64,000 bases of DNA from NCBI GenBank assembly GCA_012838665.1, contig DUOX01000023.1, positions 62,001 through 126,000 of the forward strand, in the 5' to 3' direction. Both the position numbers and the translations under genes were made by a program. Of this stretch, positions 20,650-57,760 are shown piece by piece. The first letter of the stretch is position 1. Each line of letters opens with the position of its first letter. The DNA is from Clostridiales bacterium. GTDB taxonomy: Bacteria > Bacillota > Clostridia > Oscillospirales > Oscillospiraceae. The notes under the pieces were generated by a model. That model searched no databases. It was not told the origin of the DNA and saw nothing but the letters and a program-made list of their open reading frames with translations.

Positions 20650-20685
20650 AGTACAAAACGGGATTACGGAGGACACTATGAATAG

Positions 20686-35005: not shown

Positions 35006-35022
35006 AAAAGATGGGGGAAATA

Positions 35023-37517: not shown

Positions 37518-37603
37518 TTTAATAAACTCAAGCAGAAGTAAGAAAGAAACGAGAAAGAACGGAACAGTAGCAGGTAACAACCCAAATTGATAGGAGGATG
37601 AAA

Positions 37604-39356: not shown

Positions 39357-39418
39357 GATTCCAACACAAAAGTTGTACGCAGAGTAGTTGGTAAAGAAAT
39401 CTAGTGAGAGGCTTTATT

Positions 39419-40366: not shown

Positions 40367-40367
40367 T

Positions 40368-41261
40368 ATGGTTAAAAACGTACATGAAACTGTTGTGGAA
40401 CCCACAACCAAACAAAAGAAAAGCAGTCTGTTCAAGCAAACAATGAAAAGACTGTTTACCAACAAAGGCGCAGTAATTGGCCTGGTTGTCTTTCTTATAA
40501 TAGTGTTTTTATCAGTTTTCGCGCCTCTAATAGCGCCCTATGGCTATACGGATATGGATATTGCCAGCAGGTTTGCCGCCCCTTCAAAAGACCACTTGTT
40601 TGGTTGCGATTCAATGGGACGTGATATCTTTTCACGTATTCTTTATGGAGGAAGGTACTCACTCCAGATTGGAATCATAGCCTCCGGTTGTGCCGCCATT
40701 ATGGCTGTCTTTATAGGCTCCGCTGCCGGATATTTCGGCGGCAAGGTTGATAATGCCCTGATGCGTATTCTTGATGTAATTCAGGCTATTCCAGGTATGC
40801 TTTTGTCAATCGCAATATCCGCAGTGCTTGGAAACGGATTGTATGAAACAATTATTGCCCTTGCTATCGGTAACGTCTCAACCATGAGCCGTATATTGCG
40901 AGGCTCCATACTTACTGTTAGAAAGTCAGAATATATTGATGCCGCTGTTGTGGACAACTCAAGCAATCTGCGTATAATCAGGAAACATATTCTGCCCAAC
41001 TCAATATCTCCTCTGATTGTTCAGATAACCATGGGATGCGCTCACGTCATTCTTGTTGCGGCAAGCCTGAGCTTTATCGGACTTGGCGTGCAGCCGCCTG
41101 AACCTGAATGGGGTGCAATGTTGTCCGCAGGACGAAGTTATATTCGCGACTATCCCCATATGACATTGTTCCCGGGCATTGCCATCATGTTGACCGTCTT
41201 ATCGTTGAATCTATTGGGTGATGGCCTGCGAGATGCTCTTGACCCTAAACAGAAGAGATGA
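40368..41261 (+). CDS. ABC importer permease, DppC type, second system
   Basis: 297 residues with FGCDSMGRDIFSRILYGGRYSLQ, an EAA-type loop (NLRIIRKHILPNSISPL) and the closing GDGLRDALDPKQ. ATG 40368 lies 1 nt after the stop of the DppB-type gene, with GAGAGGCAGG upstream. Confidence 0.9.
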   Translation: MVKNVHETVVEPTTKQKKSSLFKQTMKRLFTNKGAVIGLVVFLIIVFLSVFAPLIAPYGYTDMDIASRFAAPSKDHLFGCDSMGRDIFSRILYGGRYSLQIGIIASGCAAIMAVFIGSAAGYFGGKVDNALMRILDVIQAIPGMLLSIAISAVLGNGLYETIIALAIGNVSTMSRILRGSILTVRKSEYIDAAVVDNSSNLRIIRKHILPNSISPLIVQITMGCAHVILVAASLSFIGLGVQPPEPEWGAMLSAGRSYIRDYPHMTLFPGIAIMLTVLSLNLLGDGLRDALDPKQKR

Positions 41262-41275
41262 GAAGGGAGCATATT

Positions 41276-42295
41276 ATGTCTAATAACAATGTAAAAACAA
41301 CAGAACCCGTGGTCGGAGTTAACGATAAAGAAAACATTAACGAACCATTTCTTAAAGTTGAAGACCTTGTAGTTGAATATACCTCTTACGGGGAAATTAT
41401 TCATGCTGTCAACGGGGTTTCACTACAGCTGGAGCGGGGAAAAACCCTTGGTCTTGTTGGGGAAACGGGAGCAGGAAAGACTACCATTGCCAAATCCATC
41501 CTGGGAATACTGCCGAAATTCTCATCAAGTATCAAGCGGGGCCAGGTTTTCATAGATGGACAGGATTTGCTTTCGCTGCCCGAAAAAGAAATGCAGAAAA
41601 TCAGGGGCAACAAGATTGCCATGATATTCCAGGACCCCATGACCGCTTTGAATCCGATTATACCCGTTGGAAAGCAGATTTCAGAGGCAATACAGTTGCA
41701 TTATAACGTCAGCGCGAAAGAATCCGCGGAGCGGGCAATTGAGATGCTGGAAATGGCCGGTATCACGGGCGAGCGCTATAACGACTATCCTCACCAGTTT
41801 TCAGGCGGCATGAAACAGCGCGTTGTTATCGCCATGGCTTTGGCTTGCCGCCCTGAACTGCTCCTGGCAGACGAGCCGACAACGGCTCTTGACGTTACAA
41901 TCCAGGCGCAGATTCTGGAGATGATTAAGGAATTAAGAGATAAGTTTAACATGGCGCTGATTCTCATTACCCACGACTTCGGCGTTGTTGCCGAACTGTG
42001 TGATGAGGTAGCTGTCGTGTATGCAGGAGAAATTATTGAATCCGGCACTAAGGAAGACATTTTTATTCATCCTACACATCCTTACACTATAGGTCTTTTT
42101 GATTCTATTCCTCATATTGATTCAGACGCCGACCGCCTTAAACCCATTGCGGGACTTCCGCCCAACCCTGCCGTTTTGCCCAAGGGATGCCATTTTTCGC
42201 CGCGCTGTCCCAAGGCTACCGACGAATGCAGGGATCAACCTATACCAATGGTAGAGACTTCACCGGGTCATTTCTGCCGTTGCTGCCACATATAA
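41276..42295 (+). CDS. ABC importer ATPase, DppD type, second system
   Basis: 339 residues: Walker A GETGAGKTT, Q-loop IFQDPMTALNP, signature FSGGMKQR, Walker B LLLADEPTTALD, and a C-terminal Cys cluster CHFSPRCPKATDEC. ATG 41276 follows AGAAGGGAG, which belongs to an in-frame upstream extension that is probably not translated. About 30 extra N-terminal residues precede the domain start compared with the first system. Confidence 0.92.
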   Translation: MSNNNVKTTEPVVGVNDKENINEPFLKVEDLVVEYTSYGEIIHAVNGVSLQLERGKTLGLVGETGAGKTTIAKSILGILPKFSSSIKRGQVFIDGQDLLSLPEKEMQKIRGNKIAMIFQDPMTALNPIIPVGKQISEAIQLHYNVSAKESAERAIEMLEMAGITGERYNDYPHQFSGGMKQRVVIAMALACRPELLLADEPTTALDVTIQAQILEMIKELRDKFNMALILITHDFGVVAELCDEVAVVYAGEIIESGTKEDIFIHPTHPYTIGLFDSIPHIDSDADRLKPIAGLPPNPAVLPKGCHFSPRCPKATDECRDQPIPMVETSPGHFCRCCHI

Positions 42296-42310: not shown

Positions 42311-43261
42311 ATGAACACATTAGTTGAGGTAAAAGATCTCAAAAAATATTTTAATACTCCCGGTGGCCAGCTTCACGCTGTTGATGGTGTTTCCTTCAAA
42401 ATCCAGAAGGGAAAAACTATGGGTGTAGTAGGCGAGTCTGGCTGCGGAAAAACAACTTTGGGACGTTTGATGGTTCATTTGGAAGAGAGCACAGGCGGCA
42501 ATATATACTTTGAGGGCAAGGATATTACCCATGCTAAGGGCATAGAATTAAAGAAACTGCGCCAAAAAGTACGTATAATCTTTCAGGACCCGTTTTCTTC
42601 ATTGAACCCCAGAATGACAATTAGAAGTTCCATTCAGGAACCTCTCCGTATCGCCAGAAATCCTGTAGAAGAAATGGTTATGCGCACGAACCAGCTTATG
42701 GACATGGTGGGCATTGACACCCGTCTACACCTTTCATTTCCCCATGAGCTTGACGGCGGCCGCCGTCAACGCGTGGGCATAGGCCGTGCGCTGGCGCCAA
42801 ATCCGTCTTTCATCGTTTGCGACGAGCCGGTTTCGGCCCTGGACGTATCCATTCAGGCGCAGGTGCTGAACCTGTTGCAGGACCTGCAGCAGGAGTATGG
42901 AATTACATACATGTTCATAACCCACGACCTGTCGGTAGTGCGCCATATCTCAGACGATATCTGTGTCATGTATCTGGGGCAGCTGGTGGAAACAAGCCCA
43001 TCCAAGGAGCTGTTCAAAAATCCGCTGCACCCGTACACGAAAGCACTTCTGTCAGCGATTCCGTCCACTGATATTTACAAAAAACCAAAACGGATTATGC
43101 TGAAAGGCGAGCTGTCCTCTCCCATTAACCCAAAACCCGGCTGCCGCTTTTTGCCAAGGTGCCCCTACGCTACAGACGCCTGCAGGGAGCCGCAAAAGCT
43201 GGAGGAGATACTCCCCAACCATTTTGCATCTTGCTGCCGCGTCAAAGAAATCAACGACTGA
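42311..43261 (+). CDS. ABC importer ATPase, DppF type, second system
   Basis: 316 residues, the same length as the paralogue at 15910. Walker [11 protein letters not shown]-loop [11 protein letters not shown], signature region [15 protein letters not shown] and Walker [14 protein letters not shown]-terminal [14 protein letters not shown]. It ends the importer genes and is followed by a terminator-like hairpin. Confidence 0.92.
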
Positions 43262-43454: not shown

Positions 43455-44336
43455 TTATTTTTGGATAGGGCTTTTTGCCAGGATGTAATCGGTTAGAATT
43501 CGCAAATTTCTGCTCCTGAACTTGTCCTTATTCCACACAAGCGCAAAGTTTATAGGCACTTTTTCCTTCAACGGAATGGCTATAATCTCCGGGAGCGATT
43601 CTGCTAGTTCTTTAGAGAGGAAAGTACCGGCTTTACCCGAATATACGAACTGTTTAATAAGCGGCAGCTGTACCGCGTATAGAAGAATATTCGGAACCAG
43701 ACCCTCATCATAAAACCGCTTTTTAATTTGCCTGGTCATAAATGACTCTTCATGGTTTAAGATGAGCGGGTGGGATTCAATTTCTGCCAGAGACAATTCT
43801 TTTGCTCCCGCTAGAGGGTGACTGGAATTGACACAGAAAACAAACTCTGATGAAAAAACCCGGTGCATCTCCATGTTCTCGGGGAGTGTTTCCGGCTCCA
43901 CAACTATTGCCGCATCACAGGTACCGTTATTAAGAAATTTAAACGCGACAATTGAATTGCATTGCTTGACTTCAAAGAAAATGTCGGGATATTCATGATG
44001 GAAGTCTCCCATGAGCAGGGGAAACAGATGTATTCCCGTGAAGTTAGGTATACTGAGGCAAAGCCGACTCTGCTGACTTCCGATGTCAGCCATCTGTACC
44101 TCCAGAGCATTTATTCGATTGAGAATATCTTTTATGCGCTCATAGATGTATATGCCTTCCTGGGACAGTTTTAGCTGCTTATTCTCGCGATTGAACAATA
44201 CTATACCAAATTCCCTTTCCAGATCTTTTATTGCCATAGAAACGGACGGCTGTGATATAAAAAGCGCTTCTGCTGCTTTAGAAATGCTTCCGTACTCACA
44301 AACGGCGGCGAAGTATTGCATTTGCTGGATAGTCAT
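43455..44336 (-). CDS. LysR-family transcriptional regulator
   Basis: 293 residues. The helix-turn-helix (GSISKAAEALFISQPSVSMAIKDLE, residues ~17-41) is typical, followed by a LysR effector domain with LRLCLSIPNFTG-like strands and VVEPETLPENMEMHRVF. AAGGGGGG precedes the ATG. It is divergent from the amidohydrolase-GalB-RraA-Ior operon at 44539 and convergent with the importer, so it most likely controls one or both in response to a pathway intermediate. Confidence 0.92.
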   Translation of the reverse strand: MTIQQMQYFAAVCEYGSISKAAEALFISQPSVSMAIKDLEREFGIVLFNRENKQLKLSQEGIYIYERIKDILNRINALEVQMADIGSQQSRLCLSIPNFTGIHLFPLLMGDFHHEYPDIFFEVKQCNSIVAFKFLNNGTCDAAIVVEPETLPENMEMHRVFSSEFVFCVNSSHPLAGAKELSLAEIESHPLILNHEESFMTRQIKKRFYDEGLVPNILLYAVQLPLIKQFVYSGKAGTFLSKELAESLPEIIAIPLKEKVPINFALVWNKDKFRSRNLRILTDYILAKSPIQK

Positions 44337-44396
44337 CTTAGCCCCCCTTTCTTTAGATCTGTGGTTATAATTTGGTTTTCAGTGTTTAATGACATT

Positions 44397-44479
44397 ATAG
44401 CATAAAAAATTAATAATATCAAATTTACTGAACTAATTATATTTTTTTCATATTTTACATTTTAAAGTATAAATGCTAT
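44397..44479. promoter_or_regulatory. Divergent control region with ATAGCAT inverted repeat
   Basis: The ~200-nt gap between the LysR gene and the catabolic operon is very AT-rich. ATAGCAT (44397-44403) and ATGCTAT (44473-44479) form an inverted pair 69 nt apart, each next to a run of A/T. These are candidate LysR contact sites; no convincing -35/-10 pair was picked. Confidence 0.3.
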
Positions 44480-44538
44480 CCTCGATTTAGAAGTAAATTA
44501 TTTTGGTGTATCCTTTTATAATTTCGGGGTGTTTTCAA

Positions 44539-45438
44539 ATGAGCGATTCAATTATAACCGGCGCCTATGATATGCATATACACACGGGTCCAGATATCAT
44601 GGATAGAAAGATGGACTACCTTGAACAGGCAGAACGTGTGGTAAAAGCAGGCATGGCGGGTTTCGTAATCAAAAGTCACTATTTTACCAGTTCCTCCTGG
44701 GCCAAGGTAGCAAACGCGAGATTTCCGGAGTGCCAGACCTTTGGCAGCATTGTTCTAAACAATTCCGTAGGCGGCATGAATCCTTTTGCAGTTGACGCAG
44801 TCGCGCGCGACGGCGGAAAGGTAGTCTGGTTCCCCACGGTTGACACGGTCGCAGCAATTAAAAAGACGGAGCACTCTGCCGAGCAAGGCGGTCGCCGCCC
44901 CCACTGGCTCGACGTACTGCTGTCAATACAGGCGGACGGAATAGTGGAGCTTAAGCCAGTCCGCATACTGGACGATAACGGCAAACTGCTGCCCGAAGTC
45001 ATCGAAGTTATTGACGTCATTGCAAAATACGACATGATTCTCTGCACCGGGCATATCTCTCCGCGAGAGGGAAAAGAAGTCGTAAAAACCGCATATGAGC
45101 GGGGAGTCAAAAGGATTATATGCACTCATGTGGACTCTGAGCTCTGTTTTTACGAAATTGAGGAGCAGCTTGAACTGGTTAAAAAGTACGGGGCATACAT
45201 GGAGCATTGCACCAACAGCTGCACCACGGGAAAGGTGTCATGGGATGTATGCCTGGCCCAAATCAAGGCTGTCGGATGCGATAATGTTATCATCAGCACC
45301 GACCTGGGCCAGCTTAAACACAAGTATCCGGACGAGGGCCTTTTGGATTTTGCGCACTGGATGCTGGAAAACGGAATATCGGAAACGGATGTCAGAAAGA
45401 CGTTTTACGATAATCCTCGCAAGCTTCTATTTGGATAA
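44539..45438 (+). CDS. Amidohydrolase-like protein (DUF6282 type)
   Basis: 299 residues with a TIM-barrel metallohydrolase pattern. HIHTGPD (residues ~14-20) gives the first His-x-His metal pair. SHYF after strand 2, LCTGHIS and CTHVDSE give later His ligands, and IISTDLG supplies the closing Asp. The layout fits the DUF6282 family, related to amidohydrolases, whose reaction is not settled. It may open a lactone, lactam or amide. ATG 44539 is chosen because GGGGTG precedes it and HIHTG proteins start close to this point. First gene of an eight-gene operon divergent from LysR. Confidence 0.65.
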   Translation: MSDSIITGAYDMHIHTGPDIMDRKMDYLEQAERVVKAGMAGFVIKSHYFTSSSWAKVANARFPECQTFGSIVLNNSVGGMNPFAVDAVARDGGKVVWFPTVDTVAAIKKTEHSAEQGGRRPHWLDVLLSIQADGIVELKPVRILDDNGKLLPEVIEVIDVIAKYDMILCTGHISPREGKEVVKTAYERGVKRIICTHVDSELCFYEIEEQLELVKKYGAYMEHCTNSCTTGKVSWDVCLAQIKAVGCDNVIISTDLGQLKHKYPDEGLLDFAHWMLENGISETDVRKTFYDNPRKLLFG

Positions 45439-45461
45439 TGCTTTTTTGGAGGCGATAAACA

Positions 45462-46214
45462 ATGTTTAGTGATCAACGTCTATTAGTAGTTTCAGCTCAT
45501 TCTGCAGACTGGGTATGGCGCAGCGGCGGAACAATCGCCAAGTATTTGGCAGGCGGAGCCGCGGTATATGTGGTATGTCTTACGCACGGCGTCCGCGGGG
45601 AGTCCGCCCAACTGTGGAAAGACCCGGATCAGGTGGCGGAGAATGTCAGAAAGATTCGGAGTCAGGAAGCAGCAAACGCTGCCAAGGTTCTTGGCGTAAC
45701 CAATCTTGAGATGTGGGATTTCAACGACTGCATGCTGGAAGTTGAGCCAAAGATTCTGCAAAAGCTTAATGAGAAAATCCGTCAGGTACAGCCTACTCTG
45801 ATCATTACTCACGACAAGCGTGACGTAACCAATCCTGACCACGGATTTGCAAGCGAGATTGTCTACCGTGCGGTAATCATGGCAAAGCAGAACGGAATTG
45901 ACTGCGGCGGATTGAAGCCCGCAAAACCCTGCCCCGTTTACGGCTTTGAGGCGTCGGAGCCTGAGAGAAGCGGCTTTGTTCCCGCCGTTTACATAGACAT
46001 TACCGATTTCTTTGAAAAGAAGCTCGAGGCAATGAAGTGCATTGAATCTCAGACAGAGGGACCCTTCATTCACACCAGACTGAGCACCCACAGAGGATGG
46101 CAGGCATCCCGCACCATAGGCGACAAAAACATTAAGTATGCCGAGGCCTTCACAATGAGAGATCCGCTTGTTGTAGCCAAGTTACCGGTGAGGAAGCTTC
46201 AGAATTTTAATTAA
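45462..46214 (+). CDS. PIG-L-family protein, GalB (4-oxalomesaconate hydratase)-like
   Basis: 250 residues of the PIG-L/LmbE Zn-dependent fold. In deacetylases the first motif is HPDDE; here it reads AHSADWVWRSGG, the form I associate with GalB, the PIG-L-family hydratase of 4-oxalomesaconate in Pseudomonas gallate degradation. The second metal region THDKRDVTNPDHGFA keeps the PDH of the family, and FIHTRLSTHRG is near the end. By that analogy it would hydrate a double bond of a tricarboxylic ring-cleavage product and feed an aldolase, and three RraA-type aldolase candidates follow directly. TTGGAGG precedes the ATG. Confidence 0.65.
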   Translation: MFSDQRLLVVSAHSADWVWRSGGTIAKYLAGGAAVYVVCLTHGVRGESAQLWKDPDQVAENVRKIRSQEAANAAKVLGVTNLEMWDFNDCMLEVEPKILQKLNEKIRQVQPTLIITHDKRDVTNPDHGFASEIVYRAVIMAKQNGIDCGGLKPAKPCPVYGFEASEPERSGFVPAVYIDITDFFEKKLEAMKCIESQTEGPFIHTRLSTHRGWQASRTIGDKNIKYAEAFTMRDPLVVAKLPVRKLQNFN

Positions 46215-46232
46215 CATGGAAGGAGGATTGTA

Positions 46233-46901
46233 ATGGGAGCATTAACTCCTGAACTAAGGGAACGCCTGTACAAGCTTAGTACTACCAATATTTCAGACGC
46301 AATGGACGCTTTAGGATTTTCAAACGTCTGTCATGGTATTGTGCCCCTGTACGAAAGTTGCAAGAAAATTGTTGGTGAGGCGATAACTCAGAGATTTATC
46401 CCCACGGACCACCTCCCCAAGCAGAAGCATGGCGGCATGGAGGCAATCCAAAATGCAGCCCCGGGAAGTATTATTGTGGTAGAAGGTAGCGTGCGCACCG
46501 ATATGAACACCTGCGGAGGAATCGCGGCTACTGCAGCCAGCGTGAACGGCCTCGCGGGCTGGGTGTCAGACGGCCTTGTACGAGATGTGGATGAGATAGT
46601 CGACCTGGGTTTCCCTGTGTACTGCAAGGGAAGAACTGTTTTAACCACCCGCGGACGTTTTATGGAAGCCGCTATTAATGAGCCCATCTGCTGCGGCGGT
46701 GCCCTGTGCCGCTTTGGAGACATCGTGGTGGCCGACAAGAGCGGCGTTGTGATTATTCCTCAGGAAAGGCTGGAAGAGGTTACGGTTAAGGCCGAGGAAC
46801 TCGCCGCCAGGGAAGATGCTATGATCCGCAGCATCAAAGAAGGAGCGGCCCTGGGCGATGTAGATGTTAAGTCAAACTATGAAAACATGCTTAAAAACTA
46901 A
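46233..46901 (+). CDS. RraA-family protein, HMG/CHA-aldolase-like, copy 1
   Basis: 222 residues of the RraA/class II HMG aldolase fold. It has NISDAMDALGF, GSIIVVEG, SDGLVRDVDE, GGALCRFGDIVVADKSGVVIIP and a C-terminal helix. The RD-x2-E/D motif (RDVDE) linked to 4-hydroxy-4-methyl-2-oxoglutarate/4-carboxy-4-hydroxy-2-oxoadipate aldolase activity is intact. E. coli RraA, an RNase E inhibitor, lacks the Asp. It would split a 4-hydroxy-2-oxo acid into pyruvate and another 2-oxo acid, or decarboxylate oxaloacetate. AGGAGG precedes the ATG; it lies 18 nt after the GalB-like gene. Confidence 0.75.
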   Translation: MGALTPELRERLYKLSTTNISDAMDALGFSNVCHGIVPLYESCKKIVGEAITQRFIPTDHLPKQKHGGMEAIQNAAPGSIIVVEGSVRTDMNTCGGIAATAASVNGLAGWVSDGLVRDVDEIVDLGFPVYCKGRTVLTTRGRFMEAAINEPICCGGALCRFGDIVVADKSGVVIIPQERLEEVTVKAEELAAREDAMIRSIKEGAALGDVDVKSNYENMLKN

Positions 46902-46925
46902 CTAAACAAGGAAAGGGGTTTTTTC

Positions 46926-47603
46926 ATGGAAAACAGGATTTTACCTCCGGAGATAATAGAGGCATTTAAAGAGCTTGACACTTCTGAAGTTGCCGATGCA
47001 GTCAACCGTTTCGGCATAAATACAGGTATGTTTGGAATCAAGAGCGTTGTCCCCGGCACAAAACTCTGCGGCCAGGCCTTTACCTGCCTGTTTGGAGTAT
47101 GCGCCGCCGGTCAGGAAGGCAAGATGGATTACCTGGATGACGTTCCGGCCGGACATGTTGTCGTTATTGATAACGATGGACGCCTCGATTACTCTTGCTG
47201 GGGCGATCTGATGAGCCGCGTTGCCATGCGCAACGGCGTGAACGGCACTGTTGCCGACGGCATTGTCAGGGACGTGAATGACATTCGTGAAATGAAATAT
47301 CCCACATTCGCCCGCGCAACGCATATGTGGACAGGCAAGATGCATTCTTACCTGGAGGCTGTACAGGTGCCCATTCGTATTGCGGGCGTCAAAGTCAATC
47401 CCGGCGACCTGATAATTGGTGACGATACCGGCGTTCTCAGCGTTCCTTTTGAACTGGCAGAGAAGGTTCTTGAAGCCGCTCAGGAAATCAGGGAAAGGGA
47501 GAAGGTTATCGAGGGCTTTATCCAGCAGGGCATGCGTCTTGACGAGGCTCGCGAGGCAACCGGTTACTATTTCCTCCAAGAAGCAAAAAAGGCACAGAAA
47601 TAG
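46926..47603 (+). CDS. RraA-family protein, HMG/CHA-aldolase-like, copy 2
   Basis: 225 residues. Family blocks DTSEVADAVNRFGI, GHVVVIDNDGRLDYSCWGD (ends quoted as VVIDN and WGD), VADGIVRDVND and NPGDLIIGDDTGVLSVP. The RD-x2-E/D motif is intact (RDVND). Divergent from copy 1, so the copies probably act on different compounds or form mixed hexamers. AAAGGGG precedes the ATG. Confidence 0.75.
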   Translation: MENRILPPEIIEAFKELDTSEVADAVNRFGINTGMFGIKSVVPGTKLCGQAFTCLFGVCAAGQEGKMDYLDDVPAGHVVVIDNDGRLDYSCWGDLMSRVAMRNGVNGTVADGIVRDVNDIREMKYPTFARATHMWTGKMHSYLEAVQVPIRIAGVKVNPGDLIIGDDTGVLSVPFELAEKVLEAAQEIREREKVIEGFIQQGMRLDEAREATGYYFLQEAKKAQK

Positions 47604-47612
47604 GAGAACATC

Positions 47613-48284
47613 ATGTCTAATGTTGGGTTCCGTCGATTTACGAACATAAACCGTCCTGACAAATCCATAGTAGAGCTGTTCAGGGGGCTCCCGACGCCCA
47701 ATATCTGCGACAATATGAGCAGGCTTTACGCTCTTTCGGGGCTTAAACCCTACAACAAGGCGCCTCTGCTTGGCACTGCTTTTACGGTCAAGGTGCCGGC
47801 CGGCGAGAATCTGATGTTCAATCATGCCATTGATTTGGCTCAGCCCGGCGATGTGCTTGTTATTGACGGCGGGGGTTCAATGGAACGCGCTCTCTGCGGC
47901 GAAATAATGATTAGCCACGCAAAGCACCGGGGGCTAGCCGGATTTATAATCAACGGCTGCATAAGGGATATTGACGCCATTGCCGATATGGATTTCCCCG
48001 TGTACGCGTTAGGGGCCAATCCTAACGGGCCGTTGAAAAATGGGCTTGGGGAGATTAACGTTCCTGTTGTCGCTGGCGGAATGGCAATATTACCCGGTGA
48101 CATTTTGATTGGAGATGCCGACGGTATTGTTGTTGTCAGGCCGCAGGATGCAGTAGAGGTCGCGGCCAAGGCCGCCAAGCAACATGAGGGTGAGCATAAG
48201 CTACTTGAAATCATAGCAGCAGGAACATGGGACAGAAGTAGTATCGCCACCGCTCTAGCTGAGAAGGGCTGCGAGATTATATAA
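47613..48284 (+). CDS. RraA-family protein, copy 3 with altered motif
   Basis: 223 residues: TPNICDNMSRLYAL, GDVLVIDGGGSMERALCGE, INGCIRDIDA and LPGDILIGDADGIVVVRP. The RD pair remains, but the residue two after it is followed by Ala (RDIDA), so the RD-x2-E/D motif is incomplete, and the usual DG before it is NG. It may have a changed reaction or be a structural partner of copies 1 and 2. TAGGAGA precedes the ATG; it starts 9 nt after copy 2. Confidence 0.72.
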   Translation: MSNVGFRRFTNINRPDKSIVELFRGLPTPNICDNMSRLYALSGLKPYNKAPLLGTAFTVKVPAGENLMFNHAIDLAQPGDVLVIDGGGSMERALCGEIMISHAKHRGLAGFIINGCIRDIDAIADMDFPVYALGANPNGPLKNGLGEINVPVVAGGMAILPGDILIGDADGIVVVRPQDAVEVAAKAAKQHEGEHKLLEIIAAGTWDRSSIATALAEKGCEII

Positions 48285-48307
48285 TTTAAACTTCATGTAA
48301 CTCATAG

Positions 48308-48351
48308 AAAGGCTGCAACACACGGTGCTCAGAACGTTTGTTGTAGCCTTT
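48308..48351 (+). other. Intercistronic hairpin before iorA
   Basis: AAAGGCTGCAACA pairs with TGTTGTAGCCTTT (13 bp, one G-U pair), followed by CGCGG without a T-run. It may adjust the ratio of RraA to IorAB transcripts. Confidence 0.4.
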
Positions 48352-48385
48352 CGCGGATTGTAAATGATTCAAAGGAGGATTGTTA

Positions 48386-50182
48386 GTGAGACGCCTTTTG
48401 ACAGGTAATGAAGCGGTTGCCCGCGGAGTGTGGGAGGCAGGCGCGGGATATGCGGCCGCATATCCGGGAACACCCAGCACCGAGATTCTGGAAAACATAG
48501 CAATGTATGACAAGAAGGATATTACAGCAGAGTGGGCGCCCAACGAAAAAGTCGCTGTTGAAAGCAGCCTGGGCGCTTCAATGGCCGGAATTCGCAGCTT
48601 TGTTTCCATGAAGTGCGTGGGCGTAAACGCTTCAGCGGATCCGTGGATGTGCATGTCCTACTCCGGCTGTAATGCCGGTATGGTTATTGCCGTGGCAGAC
48701 GAGCCGGGGCAGCAGTCAAGCGGACAGACCGCTCAGGACAACCGCACTTTTTTCAAGTTCGCGAAATACCCGTTCTTCGAGCCATCTGACAGTCAGGAAG
48801 CCAAGGATATGGTTAAGGAGGCATTCCGTATAAGCGAGGCCTCGGACACGGCGGTTGCAGTTCGACTGACAACCCGCGTATGCCATTCTAAAACCATTGT
48901 AGAGCTGGAAGATAGGCAGGAGTATGAGCCCCGAAACTATGAGCGCAATCCCGCAAAATACGTTCCCGTGCCGGGACACTCCCCTGCGCTTCTGGAAAAG
49001 GTTATGAGCAAAGCCGACAGGCTCAGGGAATATTCCGAGAATACCCCATTTAACCGCGAGGAAATATATGATACAAAAATCGGTATCATCTGTTCCGGTG
49101 TCAGCTATTGCTACGCAAAGGAAGTATTCGGCGAGAACGCGTCATATCTGAAAATCGGGTTTCTGAACCCCATTCCCATGAATAAAATCAGGGCATTCGC
49201 GCAGAAGGTTGACAAGCTTTACATCATCGAGGAAACCGACCCGATTATTGAAGACGAGGTGCGCCTTGCCGGAATCCCCTGTCATGGCAAGGATGTTCTG
49301 CCGAAAACCGGCGAACTGCTCCCCGATGTCCTGCGTGAAAAGATTTTAGGCGTTGAAATACCTAAAGTGGACGTTGACCGCGGCAAAATTCTTCCCCGCC
49401 CTCCCATGCTGTGTTCCGGCTGTCCTCATCGCGGGTTTTTCTATGAGCTGGGCAAACTAAAGAATGTCATGGTTTCGTCCGACATCGGCTGTTATACACT
49501 CGCCTGGGGCGAGCCTTTCCACACCGGCGACGCAGGCATATGCATGGGTTCGAGCCTTAGCGTTGGTCATGGCTTTAAGAAAGGAATGGATAAAAAGAAC
49601 GGAAATACGAAAGTGGTTTCCGTCCTGGGCGACTCCACCTTCCTGCATACGGGCGTACAGTCGCTGATGACGGCGGTATATAACAACAGTGATACTGTTA
49701 ATGTGATTTTAGATAACAGAATAACTGCCATGACCGGGCAGCAGGAGAACCCGTCCTCCGGCCTTACGGCCCAGGGGGATGCGGCGGTGGAGACAGACAT
49801 TCCCGCACTGTGCCGGGCCCTGGGAGTAAAACATATTGTGACAGTCAATCCAAACGACCTGCCCGCGGTCAGAACTGCCCTGAAGGAGGCCCTTGCGCGC
49901 GAAGGAGAGGGGCCCTCGGTCATAATAACCCGCTGGCCATGTGTCCTGAAGAAATTATCTCAGGCGGATAAAGAGGAATTCCCCAGCCTATACGCGGACA
50001 AGTACGACATTGATAAAGACAAATGCATAGGCTGCAAGCAATGCTTAAAGGTGGGATGCCCCGCCATCACATTTAATTCTGAGACTAAAACGGCAGAAAT
50101 TAATGATGATTGCAAGGGATGTACGGTTTGCTGCCAGGTTTGTCCCAAGCAGGCAATGTACATAAAGGAGGCTCGAGCATAG
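48386..50182 (+). CDS. iorA: Indolepyruvate:ferredoxin oxidoreductase, alpha subunit
   Basis: 598 residues. The N-terminal pyrimidine-binding domain (TGNEAVARGVWEAGAGYAAAYPG, ending AYPGTPSTEI) is followed by the TPP domain, with CSGCPHRGFF and DIGCYTLAWGEPF. A C-terminal 2x[4Fe-4S] ferredoxin domain has CIGCKQCLKVGCP and CKGCTVCCQVCP. It oxidatively decarboxylates aryl or branched 2-oxoacids to acyl-CoA while reducing ferredoxin, and its oxygen sensitivity supports an anaerobic host. GTG 48386 lies 7 nt after AAAGGAGG. In this operon it may take the 2-oxoacid released by the RraA-type enzymes. Confidence 0.93.
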   Translation: MRRLLTGNEAVARGVWEAGAGYAAAYPGTPSTEILENIAMYDKKDITAEWAPNEKVAVESSLGASMAGIRSFVSMKCVGVNASADPWMCMSYSGCNAGMVIAVADEPGQQSSGQTAQDNRTFFKFAKYPFFEPSDSQEAKDMVKEAFRISEASDTAVAVRLTTRVCHSKTIVELEDRQEYEPRNYERNPAKYVPVPGHSPALLEKVMSKADRLREYSENTPFNREEIYDTKIGIICSGVSYCYAKEVFGENASYLKIGFLNPIPMNKIRAFAQKVDKLYIIEETDPIIEDEVRLAGIPCHGKDVLPKTGELLPDVLREKILGVEIPKVDVDRGKILPRPPMLCSGCPHRGFFYELGKLKNVMVSSDIGCYTLAWGEPFHTGDAGICMGSSLSVGHGFKKGMDKKNGNTKVVSVLGDSTFLHTGVQSLMTAVYNNSDTVNVILDNRITAMTGQQENPSSGLTAQGDAAVETDIPALCRALGVKHIVTVNPNDLPAVRTALKEALAREGEGPSVIITRWPCVLKKLSQADKEEFPSLYADKYDIDKDKCIGCKQCLKVGCPAITFNSETKTAEINDDCKGCTVCCQVCPKQAMYIKEARA

Positions 50183-50766
50183 TGACAAAAAGTGTATTAC
50201 TTGTGGGAGTCGGCGGACAGGGAACTATAACGGCAAGCAAGTTGCTGACCCTCGGTCTTCTGGAGTCGGGCTATGACGTGAAGATGAATGAAATCCACGG
50301 AATGAGCCAGCGCGGCGGCTCGGTCTCCTCAGATGTGCGCTACAATGACACCGGAAAGGTTCATTCCCCTGTAATTAGCCTCGGAGGAGCAGATATTCTG
50401 GTGTCATTCGAGGAGATGGAGGCGCTCCGCTGGTGCGACTATGTAAAGCCGGAGGGCGCTATTATAGTTAGCACCGAACGTATTGCGGGGCTCCCGATTA
50501 TGACCGGGCGCATGGAATACCCGGAGGGTATTGTTGACGAGCTCAAGAAAGTGGCCAAAACAGTTCTGGCCATTGACGGTCCTGCCGAAGCCGAAAAAAT
50601 CGGCAACAGCAGAGTGACGAATGTAATACTCCTCGGTGTCATTGTCAAATACATGGGCCTTGAGAACATTGACTGGCATAAAATCATACGGGAAAACATA
50701 AAGCCGGCTTTTATTGATTTGAATATTAAAGCCTTTGAGCTGGGCAAAACCCTGCTTGACCGGTAG
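50182..50766 (+). CDS. iorB: Indolepyruvate:ferredoxin oxidoreductase, beta subunit
   Basis: 194 residues, the gamma-like domain of 2-oxoacid oxidoreductases: VLLVGVGGQGTITASKLL, EIHGMSQRGGSVSSDVR and DILVSFEEMEALRW. GTG 50182 overlaps the iorA stop by one base, with AAAGGAGG 8 nt upstream, so it is translationally coupled to iorA. Confidence 0.92.
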   Translation: MTKSVLLVGVGGQGTITASKLLTLGLLESGYDVKMNEIHGMSQRGGSVSSDVRYNDTGKVHSPVISLGGADILVSFEEMEALRWCDYVKPEGAIIVSTERIAGLPIMTGRMEYPEGIVDELKKVAKTVLAIDGPAEAEKIGNSRVTNVILLGVIVKYMGLENIDWHKIIRENIKPAFIDLNIKAFELGKTLLDR

Positions 50767-50826
50767 TTTAAGCGGGACTTCCAGCAAAAATCCAGACATT
50801 TCTAATTCAAATGGAGGAATTTATTT

Positions 50827-51702
50827 ATGCCTCAGGTGCATGATGTTTCAATAGTAATAGATACATATCCCCAAACCCGCACCATTAAGGAGGGCGAGCT
50901 GACCAGCCCGATTCTTAATTTGAAGTTTACGGAATACAAGCCCATCAGCAAGGCCTTTGATGATATGCTCAAGGACCAGCCTTTCGATGTGTGCGAAATG
51001 GCCCTCGGGACATATCTGCAGGCTCTTGATGTCGGAAAATCCGTAAAGCTTTTGCCCGTAGTAATGGGCGGAGAGTTCCACCACGGCAGCATTTGGTATA
51101 ATCCGGCCCTTGGTCATCTAAGTCCATCAGACCTGAAGGGCAAAAAGGTTGGTGTACGCGCCTATACCCAGACCACAGGACTGTGGGTGCGCGGAATTAT
51201 TCAGGAACAGTTTGGCGTGCCGTCAAATGAGGTCACCTGGGTAACCACGGAGGCCCCCCACGTCGCCGAATACGTCTGCCCATCCAATGTGGAGCTTATG
51301 GAGGGTGCAGACCTTGCCGAAATGGTCCGTGCAGGCGAACTGGCGGCTGTCATAATGGGCTCAAAGCAGGGCGGCCCCAAGGGCCTGGAGAGGCTTATCC
51401 CGGATGTGGAAGGCTCAATAGCCCAGTGGTACGAAAAACATAAGGCTGTGCCCATTAACCACATGGTGGTTGTAAGCGAGAAAATGGACCCTGCTCTGGT
51501 CTGCGAGGTCTATGACCTTCTGTGCAAGGGACTCGAGCTGGCATATCCCCCCGCAGACCGGAAAGAAACCTTTGCGCTACGTAACGGCGTTGACGAAGTC
51601 TGGAGCGCCGTCGAGCTGGCAATTCAGTATTCATATGAACAGGGCCTTACTTCCCGCGTGTTTGATAAGAGCGAGGTTTTCCATAAAGTCTTTAACGAAT
51701 AG
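50827..51702 (+). CDS. 4,5-dihydroxyphthalate decarboxylase-like protein
   Basis: 291 residues, cytoplasmic, with the periplasmic-binding-protein-like fold of the Pht5/MqnA/NMT1 group. Blocks resembling 4,5-dihydroxyphthalate decarboxylase are DVCEMALGTYLQAL, LLPVVMGGEFHHGSIWYN (cut here at FHHG), GVRAYTQTTGLWVRGIIQEQ and MVVVSEKM. No signal peptide or lipobox is present, so it is an enzyme candidate and not a transporter part. It would remove a carboxyl group from a dihydroxylated aromatic or related acid. TGGAGG lies upstream of the ATG. Last gene of the operon. Confidence 0.75.
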   Translation: MPQVHDVSIVIDTYPQTRTIKEGELTSPILNLKFTEYKPISKAFDDMLKDQPFDVCEMALGTYLQALDVGKSVKLLPVVMGGEFHHGSIWYNPALGHLSPSDLKGKKVGVRAYTQTTGLWVRGIIQEQFGVPSNEVTWVTTEAPHVAEYVCPSNVELMEGADLAEMVRAGELAAVIMGSKQGGPKGLERLIPDVEGSIAQWYEKHKAVPINHMVVVSEKMDPALVCEVYDLLCKGLELAYPPADRKETFALRNGVDEVWSAVELAIQYSYEQGLTSRVFDKSEVFHKVFNE

Positions 51703-51736: not shown

Positions 51737-51784
51737 CAGAGCCGTCGCGTCTGCTTTCACAGCCGCTTCGGCTCTGCTTTTTTC
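51737..51784. terminator. Bidirectional terminator
   Basis: CAGAGCCG pairs with CGGCTCTG, with an A6 run on the left and CTTTTTT on the right. It separates the convergent catabolic operon (+) and the ROK gene (-), whose last codons it overlaps. Confidence 0.75.
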
Positions 51785-52930: not shown

Positions 52931-53719
52931 TTAGTCTATGAGGTTTTTGGCCTGGACATAGTTGAACACCGGGCCTTCCTGGCAGACATATATGCCGCCG
53001 ATTTTGCAGTGTCCGCATTTCCCGACGGAGCAGGACATCTTCCGCTCAAGGGAAACCCATATTCGGGATTCGTCCACGCCGTTTTTTAAGCATTCCTTTG
53101 CAGAGAAGTTAATCATCGCAGGAGGGCCGACAATGACTATATTATAGTCTGAGAATGTGGCGAAAGGAACTTCTTTTATGTATTCCGTTACAAAGCCCTT
53201 ATTAAAACCTTCAGCCTCCATGTTGTCAAGGCAATAGAAGGTTTCAAATCTTTGCTTGAACTTCTCCAAATCATCACGGAACAGCACGCAGTCAATGTTC
53301 CTGAAACCGGTAATAAGGGTTAGGGAATTAATCTCCTCCGGGTTTGCGTAGAAATGCTGAAGCATGCTGCGAACTGCCGCAAGGCCGGTGCCGCCTGCAA
53401 TTACCACAAGGTCTTTACCTTTAAAATCCTCTACAGGGAAGGAGTTGCCATAGGGTCCTCTCATGAAAATGGTATCCCCGGCGTCCATTCCGAAGATGCC
53501 CCCCGTGAGACGGCCGACCTTACGGATTGTAAATTCCAGCCATCCGTTTCCCATAGAGCTGACGGAAATGGGGGCCTCGCCAATTTTGGGGATTGACAGG
53601 ACATAGAACTGTCCGTGCTCAACCTTTGCGTCGCATTCCACCCGGAAGGTGTATTCCGCATTGGTTTCATGGGTGACATTCAGGATTTTATGTGGTGTAG
53701 GCATCAATATGTTTTTCAT
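52931..53719 (-). CDS. FAD/NAD(P)H-binding electron-transfer subunit, AsrB-like
   Basis: 262 residues of the ferredoxin-NADP reductase/AsrB/PyrK type. The FAD half ends around GQFYVLSIPKIGEAPISVSS (here ISVSS as the family's RPxS-like site). The NAD half has VIAGGTGLAAVRSML and IVIVGPPAMI. The C-terminal CSVGKCGHCKIGGIYVC is a [2Fe-2S] motif (C-x4-C-x2-C-x7-C). It passes electrons between NAD(P)H and the partner Fe-S subunits. Its ATG overlaps the AsrA-like stop (ATGA). Confidence 0.85.
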   Translation of the reverse strand: MKNILMPTPHKILNVTHETNAEYTFRVECDAKVEHGQFYVLSIPKIGEAPISVSSMGNGWLEFTIRKVGRLTGGIFGMDAGDTIFMRGPYGNSFPVEDFKGKDLVVIAGGTGLAAVRSMLQHFYANPEEINSLTLITGFRNIDCVLFRDDLEKFKQRFETFYCLDNMEAEGFNKGFVTEYIKEVPFATFSDYNIVIVGPPAMINFSAKECLKNGVDESRIWVSLERKMSCSVGKCGHCKIGGIYVCQEGPVFNYVQAKNLID

Positions 53720-54642
53720 ACACCCGCTCCTCCTTCCGCTTTAAGTTGCTTCACCTTATCGGCAAGGGTGTTGACAATATCGGAAAATCTTATATCCCTG
53801 GGGCAGCGCTCCCCGCAGCGGCCGCAGCCGACGCACATGTGGGTCTCTCCAAAGCGCTGGCGGAAGTCGTATATCTTGTGCATGACTTTAAAGCGCATCC
53901 TGTCGCCAGCCCTTTTGCGGACGTTGTGCCCTCCCGCCATGGCGGTGAAATCCTCACGCATGCAGGAGCCCCAAACCCTGCGGCGTTCGCCGTCAAGGCT
54001 GGTTTCGCTGTAAATTACATCGATGGTATCGAAGCAGGAGCAGGTGGGGCACACAGCGGTGCAGCCGCCGCAGCCGGCGCAGTTTTCGTCAAAACTCCGC
54101 CAGTATTCAAGCTCAAAAACATCCTTTACAAGGCTCTCGTCAATATCCGGCACAGTAACGGACTTCTTATTCTCGCTTACAAATATGGGCTCGGACTCCA
54201 TGTCAATTTTACCGTCGCGGAGAATGCCTTTGAAATTGTCAGTTCTATTCGTGCCCATGGACACGCAGAAACAGCTGTCGAAACTGTCCTTGCACTCAAT
54301 GAGCACAAAATTTACTTTGTCCCTGAGTCGTTTGTAATAGAAATCCTCATTGCCGCCGTTTTTTAGAAAAATCGTGTCCAGCCTCTCAATGGCGTTTATA
54401 TCGCAGGCCCGGGCGAAAATCAATATTTCCCTGTCGTCTTCAAGTTTGCTTTCCGCGCAGTGACTATTTTCAAAGTAAAAGACTGTCTGCACTATGGGGA
54501 GGTACACTTCTTTTGGGGAAAAGTGGGACTTTTCGTCCACTACTATTTCCGAGAGAGAGTCTATTTCCCCATATCGTATAGACCCGTTAGGGAACCTTTT
54601 TGGAGCGAAAACTCTATACTTCTCCTTGAGCTTGGAAATCAT
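53716..54642 (-). CDS. Dicluster ferredoxin subunit, AsrA-like
   Basis: 308 residues. The N-terminal ~220 residues match anaerobic sulfite reductase subunit A / hydrogenase beta-like proteins (ARACDINAIERLD). The C-terminal clusters are CAGCGGCTAVCPTC and CVGCGRCGERCP. It normally works with an AsrB-like flavoprotein, as here. No AsrC (siroheme sulfite reductase) gene is present; a molybdoenzyme takes its place. Start at 54642 overlaps the ferredoxin stop (ATGA). Confidence 0.85.
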   Translation of the reverse strand: MISKLKEKYRVFAPKRFPNGSIRYGEIDSLSEIVVDEKSHFSPKEVYLPIVQTVFYFENSHCAESKLEDDREILIFARACDINAIERLDTIFLKNGGNEDFYYKRLRDKVNFVLIECKDSFDSCFCVSMGTNRTDNFKGILRDGKIDMESEPIFVSENKKSVTVPDIDESLVKDVFELEYWRSFDENCAGCGGCTAVCPTCSCFDTIDVIYSETSLDGERRRVWGSCMREDFTAMAGGHNVRKRAGDRMRFKVMHKIYDFRQRFGETHMCVGCGRCGERCPRDIRFSDIVNTLADKVKQLKAEGGAGV

Positions 54643-55229
54643 TTCTTCCACGGCTCTTCCTCCTTCCATTTGGCGCCCCGCAGGATGAACCTGCCGGAGG
54701 GTTTGTTCCCTTCGTCAGGAAGGGAATAGACATTTTCTCCTGCTTCACGGATAAGCTTTGACACTTCGCTTTCAGGGTCATTTATATCCCCGTAGTAAAT
54801 TGCACTTCCCGCGCAGTTTTTCACGCAGGCGGGTTTTTCGCCTTTTGAGCGAAGTTCGGAGCAAATGTCGCACTTATCCATGACGTGCATTTCCTTATTA
54901 AAATTCATGGCCCCGTATGGACAGCTTTGTTTACAGGTGCCGCAGCCAACGCAGCGGTCGGTGTTGATTTTAATGACTCCGTCCTCGGTATCTTTGTGGC
55001 AAGCGCCGGTGGGGCAAAGATTAACGCAGGGCGGGTTTTCGCATTGTTGGCACATTACGGGCAAAAAGTACATTTCCAGCTCCGGATAGCGCCCGCTTTC
55101 CATGGTGTACATCTTTGACCGGGAATCACCCAGGGCAGTGCCGTGCTCAAGTTTGCATGCCACGCGGCAGCCGCCCAGACAGCCGATGCAGCGGTCAAGA
55201 TCAATAACAAGGGTATATTGTTTGGACAT
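54639..55229 (-). CDS. 4Fe-4S ferredoxin subunit, DmsB/NrfC type
   Basis: 196 residues with four cluster motifs: CIGCLGGCRVAC, CQQCENPPCVNLCP, CVGCGTCKQSCP and CDICSELRSKGEKPACVKNC. This is the standard electron-transfer subunit of MopB enzymes. It has no twin-arginine partner signal, so the complex is cytoplasmic. The start overlaps the molybdoenzyme stop by one base (TGATG). Confidence 0.9.
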   Translation of the reverse strand: MSKQYTLVIDLDRCIGCLGGCRVACKLEHGTALGDSRSKMYTMESGRYPELEMYFLPVMCQQCENPPCVNLCPTGACHKDTEDGVIKINTDRCVGCGTCKQSCPYGAMNFNKEMHVMDKCDICSELRSKGEKPACVKNCAGSAIYYGDINDPESEVSKLIREAGENVYSLPDEGNKPSGRFILRGAKWKEEEPWKK

Positions 55230-57760
55230 CAGCGCACCTCCTTTTCCGAAAGGGGAAGCCAGCTCTTGAATTCCTCCGGCTTTTGCCAGATCCCTTCGGG
55301 GGGACCTTCGGCCTTGTATACTTTTACTTGGAATCCCCTGAGCGTGTAAGTGCCCACTACGTCGTTATAAGGCGCGCTTGCGCTGGTCAGGATATTTACG
55401 TTCATCTCTTTCCAGCCGTGGGTATCCTTGTTCAGGGTCTCCGGGGTCCAGAAGCGTTCCATATGGACAACTCCGGGCAAAATGCCCTCGGTAACCCTGG
55501 CCTTGGCCCGTGTTTTGCCACGTGGCGACTCTATCCATACCCAATCGCCATTGCTGACTCCATACTTTTGAGCGTCTTCGGTATGTATGGTAAGCTCCGG
55601 CACGGGATAAATCTCGCGCAGGGCGGGAATGTTGCGGCCCGTTGAGTGGTGGTAGAAGGGGACGCGCCCGCCTGTGTAAACAAGGGGGTATTCCTTGGCC
55701 AGCTCGCTGTTGGGGCTCTCGAAAGGCTCAATGAAATAAGGCAGGGGCTCGTAGTCCTTGGAGGCCGGGGGCAGTTCAATGAGACTAAAGGGCTTTCCGG
55801 TCCGGGAGAGGGTAATCATGCTCTCAAGGTAGACCTCCAGCTTTTTGGAGGGGGTATTGAAGCCCTTGGGCCTTCCGTTTTCGTCCGGCTCGAGATACAC
55901 GTAGTAGCTTCGCCATTCTTCCTTGGGCAAGTATTCAAAGGGAGCCTTTGCCTTAAACTCCTCCCATGTCAGGCCAACTTCTTTGGTAAAGTGGTTAAAG
56001 AACTCGTCCATGCTGTCCCAGTATGCCAGGTCCTCGCCCATAAACTCGGGGTCAAAGGACTTCCGGCAGCCCTCGTGGCCCAATTCGGCGCAGCGTTTGG
56101 CAAGTTTTGACCAGAACAACGTCTCGTCCATGGTTTCCCAAAGATGCACCACCGCCTGCCTTGCCACCAGGGTGTTGCAGGTTTCCACAATCATGTCGGT
56201 TTCAAGCCATTCCGCCGCAGGGAGCAAAATGTCCGCATATGCGGAAAATGAGGTCTGGCAAACGTGCATATGCACGATAAAGTCCAGCTTTTCAATGGCC
56301 TTTGCCCACTTCTGGCTTTCCGCCACAACGCCCAGCTTGTTGCCGGAGCGGTCAATCCAAACCCGGGGCTGACAGGGCTTTCCTGTCAGAATGGCGTCCA
56401 GGATGCTGGGGGGATGCCCCGCATACCAGATATGAAGCCCCTTATGCTCAATGCCGCCCAAACGCTTTTTAAGCTGCTCAGGAGGCAGCATTTTCTCGGC
56501 TACAGGTACCGGATAGTTAGGAACCTTCAAAACGCCGCTTGTCCTAAATCTCTGCAGCAGTGACCCGGGCCGCTCCACGTTTCCAAGGAGGATATCTAGG
56601 GTTGCCGCCGCCATAGCAGCCTGAACCGAGTTGGCGGTCTGGTCGGTCGCCACGCCTATTGCCAGACCGGAGGGGGTGTTTTCAGCGAAAAGCCTGATTG
56701 CTTTTTCGATTTTCTCCGCATCCAGCCAGCAGGTTTCCGCAGCCTTTTGGAGAGTAAAGGGCTCTGCCCGTTCCCAAAGCAGCTGGAAGCCCGTTTTATA
56801 TTCCCTGCCGTCAATGGTGAAAGTGCCAAACATGGCGGGGGCGAGATTTTCGTCCCAGGGATAAGGCATTGTCCTGGGGAAATTGCTGTTTGTGTCCCAG
56901 ACCACAAAATCCTCCCCGTCACGCAGGAGCATTTTTGTTTCCGTGTCTACCAGGAAAGGCAGGTTGGTCCACTTAAGCACAAACTCCCGGTCGTAAAGCT
57001 TGTTTTCGATTATGTAGCGAATCCATGCCAGCATCAGGGCAACGTCCGTGCCGGGGCGGATGGGCAGCCACACGGTGGCCTTTGCCGCGTCGGGAGTAAA
57101 CCTGGGGTCAACAACAACGGTCTTCACGCCTTTCGCACGCAGGTCAACCACAGCCCCGCCGCCGCTGGAGGGGCAGGAATAGGAGGGTGCTGTACCCCAC
57201 AAAACCAGGGTTTTGATGGGGGTGTCCTCCGGAAAATACAGCTCAAGGGCATTTGAGTCGGCAATGCTGGGGTCGGTTCCGCCGTACATCATGGTATAGG
57301 CCAAAACCCGGGGCAGGTAACACTGGGCACAGCCGGGCTCGAACCAGTTGGGCGTGCCGAAAATATTGCAGAAGCGGGCGATACTCCAGATTTCCGGGTT
57401 TCCGCCTCCGCCGGTGGAGCAGAAAACTGTCTCTGCCCCGTATTTTTCACGGGTTTCCATTAGTTTTCTGGCAATAATGTCCAATGCCTCATCCCAGGAA
57501 ATGCGCTCCCACTGGCCGCTTCCTCTGGGTCCTATACGCTTCATGGGATATTTAATCCGGTTGGGGTTATAAAGGGCCTGGATTCCGGCAAGCCCCTTGG
57601 CGCACAGGCGGCCCTTGCTCATGGGGTCCTCCGGGTTTCCCTCCAGCTTTACAACCCTGCCGTCCCGGACATGGGCAATTACTCCGCAGTTTGCTATACA
57701 AGCCCGGCATGCGGTTTTAACATACCGGGTCTCCTTTTTAGATGTCTGGTTGCTGGGCAA
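55229..57760 (-). CDS. Molybdopterin oxidoreductase (MopB family) catalytic subunit
   Basis: 843 residues. N-terminal [4Fe-4S] motif C18-x2-C21-x3-C25-x27-C53, complete here, unlike the protein at 239. YPMKRIG then ERISWDEALDIIARK; VVDPRFTPDA; IRPGTDVALML; Cys147 in CAQCYLPR as likely Mo/W ligand; C-terminal WIESPRGKTRAKA. No Tat signal precedes the Cys motif, so it is a soluble cytoplasmic enzyme. Relatives include thiosulfate/polysulfide reductase-like and aromatic-acyl-CoA-linked oxidoreductases; the substrate is open. TTG start at 57760 with GAGGTGAT 8 nt upstream. Head of a five-gene operon with ferredoxin, AsrA-like, AsrB-like and ROK genes. Confidence 0.88.
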   Translation of the reverse strand: MPSNQTSKKETRYVKTACRACIANCGVIAHVRDGRVVKLEGNPEDPMSKGRLCAKGLAGIQALYNPNRIKYPMKRIGPRGSGQWERISWDEALDIIARKLMETREKYGAETVFCSTGGGGNPEIWSIARFCNIFGTPNWFEPGCAQCYLPRVLAYTMMYGGTDPSIADSNALELYFPEDTPIKTLVLWGTAPSYSCPSSGGGAVVDLRAKGVKTVVVDPRFTPDAAKATVWLPIRPGTDVALMLAWIRYIIENKLYDREFVLKWTNLPFLVDTETKMLLRDGEDFVVWDTNSNFPRTMPYPWDENLAPAMFGTFTIDGREYKTGFQLLWERAEPFTLQKAAETCWLDAEKIEKAIRLFAENTPSGLAIGVATDQTANSVQAAMAAATLDILLGNVERPGSLLQRFRTSGVLKVPNYPVPVAEKMLPPEQLKKRLGGIEHKGLHIWYAGHPPSILDAILTGKPCQPRVWIDRSGNKLGVVAESQKWAKAIEKLDFIVHMHVCQTSFSAYADILLPAAEWLETDMIVETCNTLVARQAVVHLWETMDETLFWSKLAKRCAELGHEGCRKSFDPEFMGEDLAYWDSMDEFFNHFTKEVGLTWEEFKAKAPFEYLPKEEWRSYYVYLEPDENGRPKGFNTPSKKLEVYLESMITLSRTGKPFSLIELPPASKDYEPLPYFIEPFESPNSELAKEYPLVYTGGRVPFYHHSTGRNIPALREIYPVPELTIHTEDAQKYGVSNGDWVWIESPRGKTRAKARVTEGILPGVVHMERFWTPETLNKDTHGWKEMNVNILTSASAPYNDVVGTYTLRGFQVKVYKAEGPPEGIWQKPEEFKSWLPLSEKEVR

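Follow-up and report, generated by a model that had tools for sequence, protein, structure and literature searches.

The lower pathways in which GalB and aldolases of the RraA type are known begin with an oxygenase. What role could such enzymes have in one tight operon with an IorAB-type oxidoreductase? The question is raised by a stretch of 64,000 nucleotides from a Clostridiales bacterium (the window; bases 62001-126000 of contig C59, from an assembly of 1.76 Mb that is 98% complete), in which eight tightly spaced open frames at 44539-51702, all on the plus strand, encode a DUF6282 protein, a PIG-L family protein, three RraA-family proteins, the two subunits of an IorAB-like enzyme and a protein resembling 4,5-dihydroxyphthalate decarboxylase (DHPD). 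The operon was confirmed as a conserved unit, present across families and in another phylum, beyond chance. It is read here, with slightly more confidence than doubt, as a catabolic operon under LysR control that acts independently of oxygen on an imported polycarboxylate, one that has a hydrolysable ring or a lactone/enol structure.

An operon conserved across families and in another phylum

The operon and its borders comprise the following features.

43455-44336, minus strand: LysR-type regulator gene (Pfam LysR_substrate and HTH_1), divergent from the operon
44337-44538, no strand: divergent promoter region, sigma-70-like matches on both strands (consensus only)
44539-45438, plus strand: DUF6282 protein, amidohydrolase-superfamily hydrolase, putative lactone or ring opener (Pfam, conserved residues, AlphaFold2 (AF2) model)
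45462-46214, plus strand: GalB-like PIG-L family protein, predicted hydratase (PDB 5cgz match, AHSAD motif)
46233-46901, plus strand: RraA1, class II pyruvate-aldolase type, G-x20-RD-x2-E (Pfam, alignment to 3NOJ)
46926-47603, plus strand: RraA2, class II pyruvate-aldolase type, D102 and RD-x2-D (Pfam, alignment to 3NOJ)
47613-48284, plus strand: RraA3, E-x20-RD, of the three RraAs the nearest to HMG/CHA aldolase (NCBIfam, alignment to 3NOJ)
48380-50182, plus strand: IorA-like 2-oxoacid:ferredoxin oxidoreductase, alpha subunit (TIGR03336 score, clade)
50182-50766, plus strand: IorB subunit, GTG start overlapping the IorA stop (NF005325, 255 bits against a cut-off of 230)
50827-51702, plus strand: DHPD-like protein (PDB 9jp7 match)
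51761-51773, plus strand: terminator-like stem-loop and T run after the last gene, from a scan in which it does not rise above the chance rate

A tight operon of these genes had been proposed in a first-pass annotation of the sequence, and its position and family assignments hold. The intergenic gaps measure, in gene order, 23, 18, 24, 9 and 95 bp, followed by a 1-bp stop-start overlap of IorA and IorB and a gap of 60 bp. The borders are set by the divergent LysR gene at the 5' end and by an opposite-strand ROK regulator gene after the last gene. Sigma-70-like sequences, as consensus matches only, lie at 44422-44394 on the minus strand (11/12) and at 44389-44417 on the plus strand (10/12). The gap between RraA3 and IorA (48285-48379) can form a hairpin with a 14-bp stem (-30.2 kcal/mol for 100 nt, z -3.5) that lacks a T run, and the transcript may be processed or attenuated at this point, where the aldolase genes give way to those of the oxidoreductase.

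A scan that used the PIG-L protein as query located further copies of the operon in Clostridiales bacterium 1_7_47_FAA (L028), an Enterocloster-type isolate, and in metagenome-assembled genomes (MAGs) of Lachnospiraceae (L029), Erysipelotrichaceae (L030) and Synergistaceae (L031, completed by L080 of the same contig); co-occurrence elsewhere, whose absence the first-pass annotation had named as refuting its reading, was thus found. The LysR gene keeps its divergent position in all four, at 45-55% identity. Operon proteins of the window and its relatives are 60-87% identical (the DHPD-like protein 61-70%), compared with 62-63% for RpoB and 49-58% for IF-2 between the same genomes. The first four proteins, at 81-87% in L028, lie above this housekeeping level, as does RraA1, which is 79-87% identical in the four other lineages and 81% in the Synergistaceae copy. 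Because several operon proteins exceed housekeeping identity, the comparison speaks for horizontal spread of the operon, three of the four relatives being MAGs. Among 17 genomes of the L028 genus no further full operon was found; two others hold related PIG-L loci only.

The copies vary in detail. RraA2 is absent from the Erysipelotrichaceae copy, and the DHPD-like gene precedes IorA in L028-L030, follows IorB in the window and lies upstream of LysR in L031. In L028, L029 and L030 the operon continues into genes of the butyrate kinase (Buk) and phosphotransbutyrylase (Ptb) families; in the window genome the contig that carries the operon also holds homologues of both, with identities of 61% and 73%, near 42.8 and 54.1 kb. 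CitMHS-type carriers adjoin the full operon in L028 and L029, and in L031 and L070 the unit has neighbouring genes for SGL/NHL propellers, a family that includes lactonases.

A smaller core was also observed. DUF6282 relatives occur in 10 of 391 sampled genomes of the class, the window's own included, and the two nearest others (46-49% identity; G109 and G292) adjoin genes for a GalB-like PIG-L protein, an RraA and a TRAP-TAXI importer. The same core of DUF6282, GalB-like and RraA genes stands with TctABC in G619 (L047) and with TRAP-TAXI and a LysR gene in G694 (L069); TRAP-TAXI genes lie beside the core in L017, L018 and L069. A second G694 locus (L070) encodes a PIG-L protein and a propeller protein along with orthologues of RraA1, RraA2 and RraA3, one of each, which marks the three RraAs as old separate lineages kept together. 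A fourth RraA gene (RraA0), at 20069-20815 of the window, is related to the small-core RraA of L018 and L047; its N-terminus is absent and its C-terminal part runs on in another frame, as in a remnant or an assembly error.

Active sites of the operon proteins

The PIG-L protein (Pfam PIG-L, 97.5 bits against a cut-off of 28.2) has GalB (5cgz) as its best PDB match, with 155.6 bits against 40.5 for the next. Metal ligand positions of the family are a His, an Asp and a distal His; H13, D16 and H127 are invariant, and A15 stands where a deacetylase has Asp. The motif AHSAD is that of GalB, the acidic residue of the deacetylase form AHPDD being replaced, and 49 of 57 family-invariant positions are as in GalB, compared with 32 of 57 in a deacetylase. 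These comparisons support a GalB-type protein, as the first-pass annotation had it, rather than a sugar deacetylase, and hydratase activity is predicted; by motif and scores, an amino-sugar deacetylase was ruled out.

The three RraAs score 121, 127 and 169 bits with Pfam RraA (cut-off 24.5). In the 4-hydroxy-4-methyl-2-oxoglutarate/4-carboxy-4-hydroxy-2-oxoadipate (HMG/CHA) aldolase, Arg123 is catalytic and Asp124 and Glu199 bind the metal (PMC5065237). Alignment to this enzyme (3NOJ) finds R123, D124 and E199 retained in all three RraAs, in the motif forms RD-x2-E (RraA1), D102 with RD-x2-D (RraA2) and E102-x20-RD (RraA3). Three RraA-family proteins had been recognized from the start, two of them credited with the aldolase motif; the number stands, and the residue set extends to all three. 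Since none reaches the cut-off of the LigK/PcmE equivalog TIGR02798 (77-128 bits against 304.5), they are aldolase-type proteins rather than LigK. That the PIG-L protein might be an amino-sugar deacetylase and the RraAs RNase-E-type regulators, in a set that makes up no pathway, is hardly credible: both superfamilies do have such members, and the BshB and RraA models were matched, all far below their cut-offs, whereas the AHSAD motif lacks the deacetylase base, the aldolase catalytic residues are retained and the genes are strictly co-conserved.

The first protein matches Pfam DUF6282 at 227.6 bits (cut-off 26.8) and conserves HxH, H172, H197 and D255. Its AF2 model (pLDDT 83, built from six sequences) has as nearest folds a phosphotriesterase-homology protein, TatD, phosphotriesterases and lactonases, with Z of 18.5-19.7. 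The modelled TIM barrel, with HxH, His, His and Asp at strand ends 1, 5, 6 and 8, follows the amidohydrolase pattern; on this model the protein is of the metal-type amidohydrolase fold, which indicates the type of hydrolase and not the substrate. It is not a member of the LigI family (cog3618), as Pfam gives DUF6282 only, with no Amidohydro_2 match, and the likeness to LigI is functional only. The last protein of the operon has no Pfam or NCBIfam match; it matches the 4,5-dihydroxyphthalate decarboxylase of PDB 9jp7 with E 1.5e-12.

Like the indolepyruvate:ferredoxin oxidoreductase IorAB, the operon enzyme has both subunits, with thiamine pyrophosphate and Fe-S domains; unlike IorAB proper, its IorAs form a separate clade (100/100 support), apart from other IorAs of the same genomes. 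IorA of the window scores 647 bits with TIGR03336 (IOR_alpha), just under the cut-off of 650.9, as do the copies in L028, L029 and L030; the Synergistaceae copy, with 666 bits, is above it, and G391, G392 and G394 hold additional IorAs above it. IorB passes NF005325 and falls below TIGR03334 (156 bits against 206). By its clade, the operon's IorAB is an operon-specific paralogue. The oxidation to acyl-CoA proposed in the first-pass annotation fits the Buk and Ptb genes added in the relatives' operons.

The surrounding genes and the question of gallate

Upstream of the LysR gene lie the following.

35011-36180, plus strand: NicX/M29-like gene 1, a conserved neighbour
36366-37517, plus strand: NicX/M29-like gene 2, a conserved neighbour, 60-77% identical to operon-adjacent genes in L028-L030
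37598-43261, plus strand: OppABCDF-type importer of five genes (37598-39256, 39404-40366, 40317-41261, 41258-42295 and 42311-43261)

NicX-like genes flank the operon in four of the five cases, and in L030 an Opp-type importer set is likewise placed between NicX-like and LysR genes. The notion that these neighbours are relatives of a dioxygenase found no support. The proteins match no Pfam model, and they match NicX with E 0.15 using a nine-sequence profile and not at all using a five-sequence profile. NicX binds iron through His265, Ser302, His318 and Asp320 (PMC7910607). The weak profile alignment covers one ligand only, and the column of His265 holds Thr; an invariant HxH (319, 321), read by eye in this weak alignment, falls at His318-x-Asp320, with Asp changed to His. 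An AF2 model (pLDDT 45) was too poor for use. With these ligand columns changed, the genes find no support as ring-cleaving dioxygenases of the NicX (2,5-dihydroxypyridine dioxygenase) type, with the reservation that the alignment is weak. At L036:9561-11981 a PF10282 propeller lactonase gene comes after a NicX-like gene, and this pair is conserved in other genomes, independent of the operon (L062, L063 and L064, in the last with a branched-chain-type ABC importer).

Directly upstream of the NicX-like pair, at 30981-34143, are XdhA- and XdhB-like molybdenum hydroxylase genes, of a kind that appears to resemble genes reported for gut dehydroxylases. Together with the adjoining NicX-like genes, the Opp importer and the amidohydrolase fold of DUF6282, they could point to an N-heterocycle route, in which the Xdh-type and NicX-like proteins would act on a pyridine-type ring and DUF6282 would open a lactam. 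Such a route seems improbable, as the neighbourhoods of the other operon copies yielded no Xdh genes and the NicX-like proteins do not show the iron ligands of NicX.

The operon holds no ring-cleaving dioxygenase of a known type, as first noted, and no LigB-type or intradiol (Dioxygenase_C) domain was found in the genome, these being the only dioxygenase families searched. On the same contig there is a polyphenol island (C59 about 17.6-62 kb, loci L036-L038, and window 107-6253) with genes for several pyrogallol-transhydroxylase-like alpha subunits, beta subunits, three PF04199 cyclases, two BKACE, 3-hydroxyacyl-CoA dehydrogenases (3HCDH), thiolases and SDRs. The alpha subunit in the window scores 876 bits to the solved pyrogallol transhydroxylase, and directly after another alpha subunit gene of the contig come a third NicX-like gene and one for a propeller lactonase. 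The island's families are those of the anaerobic phloroglucinol pathway (PGR-DPGC-TfD-TAL) of Clostridium scatologenes (PMC10470551). Like that pathway, in which hydrolytic ring opening occurs and butyrate kinase is induced, the operon would be oxygen-free; unlike it, with its cyclase family and BKACE and no GalB, RraA or IorAB, the operon has different enzymes throughout.

Because phloroglucinol-pathway families are on the same contig, gallate and pyrogallol are presumably served by the known route, and the eight-gene operon is probably not for gallate. Gallate could enter it if molybdenum transhydroxylases over-hydroxylated the ring and NicX-like proteins or DUF6282 opened it hydrolytically, with entry at the level of oxalomesaconate or CHA. 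The transhydroxylase-like alpha subunits, including the one before a third NicX-like gene, would suit such a scheme, which is nonetheless very improbable: the known route has its cyclase, BKACE, 3HCDH and SDR families on the contig, and the other operon copies are without transhydroxylase genes in the stretch seen. The first-pass comparison with an anaerobic gallate/protocatechuate lower pathway accordingly survives in the fit of the active sites and is weakened in its literal sense.

Two further gene sets were observed. At 52931-57760 of the window, on the minus strand, a molybdopterin oxidoreductase gene is followed by 4Fe-4S, Fe-S and FNR-like genes, possibly for an electron-transfer or dehydroxylase complex. 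Within the island, OAD_beta, carboxyltransferase and methylmalonyl-CoA mutase genes (L037:287-6539) beside thiolase and BKACE genes possibly form a sodium-pumping decarboxylase module.

A candidate pathway and its meaning

The aerobic route uses the enzyme trio LigI, GalB/LigJ and LigK/GalC, and galBCD is under a LysR regulator (PMC12314914). Like Pseudomonas galBCD (GalD-GalB-GalC) and the LigI-LigJ-LigK set of protocatechuate 4,5-cleavage, the operon combines a GalB-type PIG-L protein, RraA-fold aldolase types, an amidohydrolase-fold hydrolase and a LysR regulator. Unlike them, it is without a ring-cleaving dioxygenase, has three divergent RraAs and DUF6282 in place of cog3618 LigI, is attached to IorAB and Ptb/Buk and belongs to a strict-anaerobe gene complement.

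We infer the reactions, their order and the substrate as follows. A polycarboxylate, such as an acid of pyrone or lactone type that derives from plant polyphenols, would be taken up by the importer, and DUF6282 would hydrolyse its ring or lactone, by analogy with LigI acting on 2-pyrone-4,6-dicarboxylate. The GalB-like protein would hydrate the resulting enol or unsaturated keto acid, and one or more RraA aldolases would cleave the 4-hydroxy-2-oxo acid, releasing pyruvate together with another oxo acid; a decarboxylation at this stage may fall to one RraA or to the DHPD-like protein. IorAB would then convert a 2-oxo acid to acyl-CoA with reduction of ferredoxin, and a phosphotransacylase and kinase, encoded in the operon in relatives and elsewhere on the contig here, would make ATP. 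A lactone- or pyrone-type polycarboxylate is favoured because the core importers are mostly of carboxylate type and lactonase-family propellers lie near two copies.

Several points weigh against this scheme. The Opp importer, here and in L030 and L031, is not the usual carrier of a small polycarboxylate; if pyruvate is the sole product, IorAB seems oddly chosen; and three RraAs exceed the need of the aerobic scheme. More distant DUF6282 genes adjoin TRAP, HMGL-like, AFOR, aconitase or MatC genes, so that a compound derived from a non-aromatic tricarboxylate may be the substrate. The main rival builds on such neighbours (aconitase, HMGL-like, CitG and TRAP/MatC genes) and on the di/tricarboxylate type of the core importers: the same hydrolase-hydratase-aldolase chemistry would serve a non-aromatic plant or microbial polycarboxylate, such as a citrate-, aconitate- or aldarate-like lactone or ester. 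It is judged rather unlikely, since the operon's surroundings are a polyphenol island, carrying transhydroxylase and phloroglucinol genes, and the PIG-L protein is specifically GalB-like.

Each of the enzyme families is known. The literature searched, from which subscription journals mostly fell outside, held no mention of DUF6282 and no description of the gene set, its conservation or its oxygen-free setting, and within it this combination appears new. An operon for an imported, hydrolysable polycarboxylate could, more tentatively, belong to an anaerobic funnel of gut and fermentative bacteria, in which DUF6282 would hydrolytically open a pyrone, lactone or molybdenum-hydroxylated ring ahead of an aerobic-type GalB-RraA lower pathway, with ATP gained through IorAB, Ptb and Buk. 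If true, this would be an oxygenase-independent entry to oxalomesaconate/CHA-type intermediates that has spread between phyla. Induction and growth tests look feasible, since the bacterium that carries L028 is a gut organism with a sequenced genome, and the operon context offers DUF6282 its first testable function. A conserved, mobile anaerobic operon with energy-conserving enzymes points to an uncharacterised, probably plant-derived carbon source of gut Clostridia and Synergistetes.

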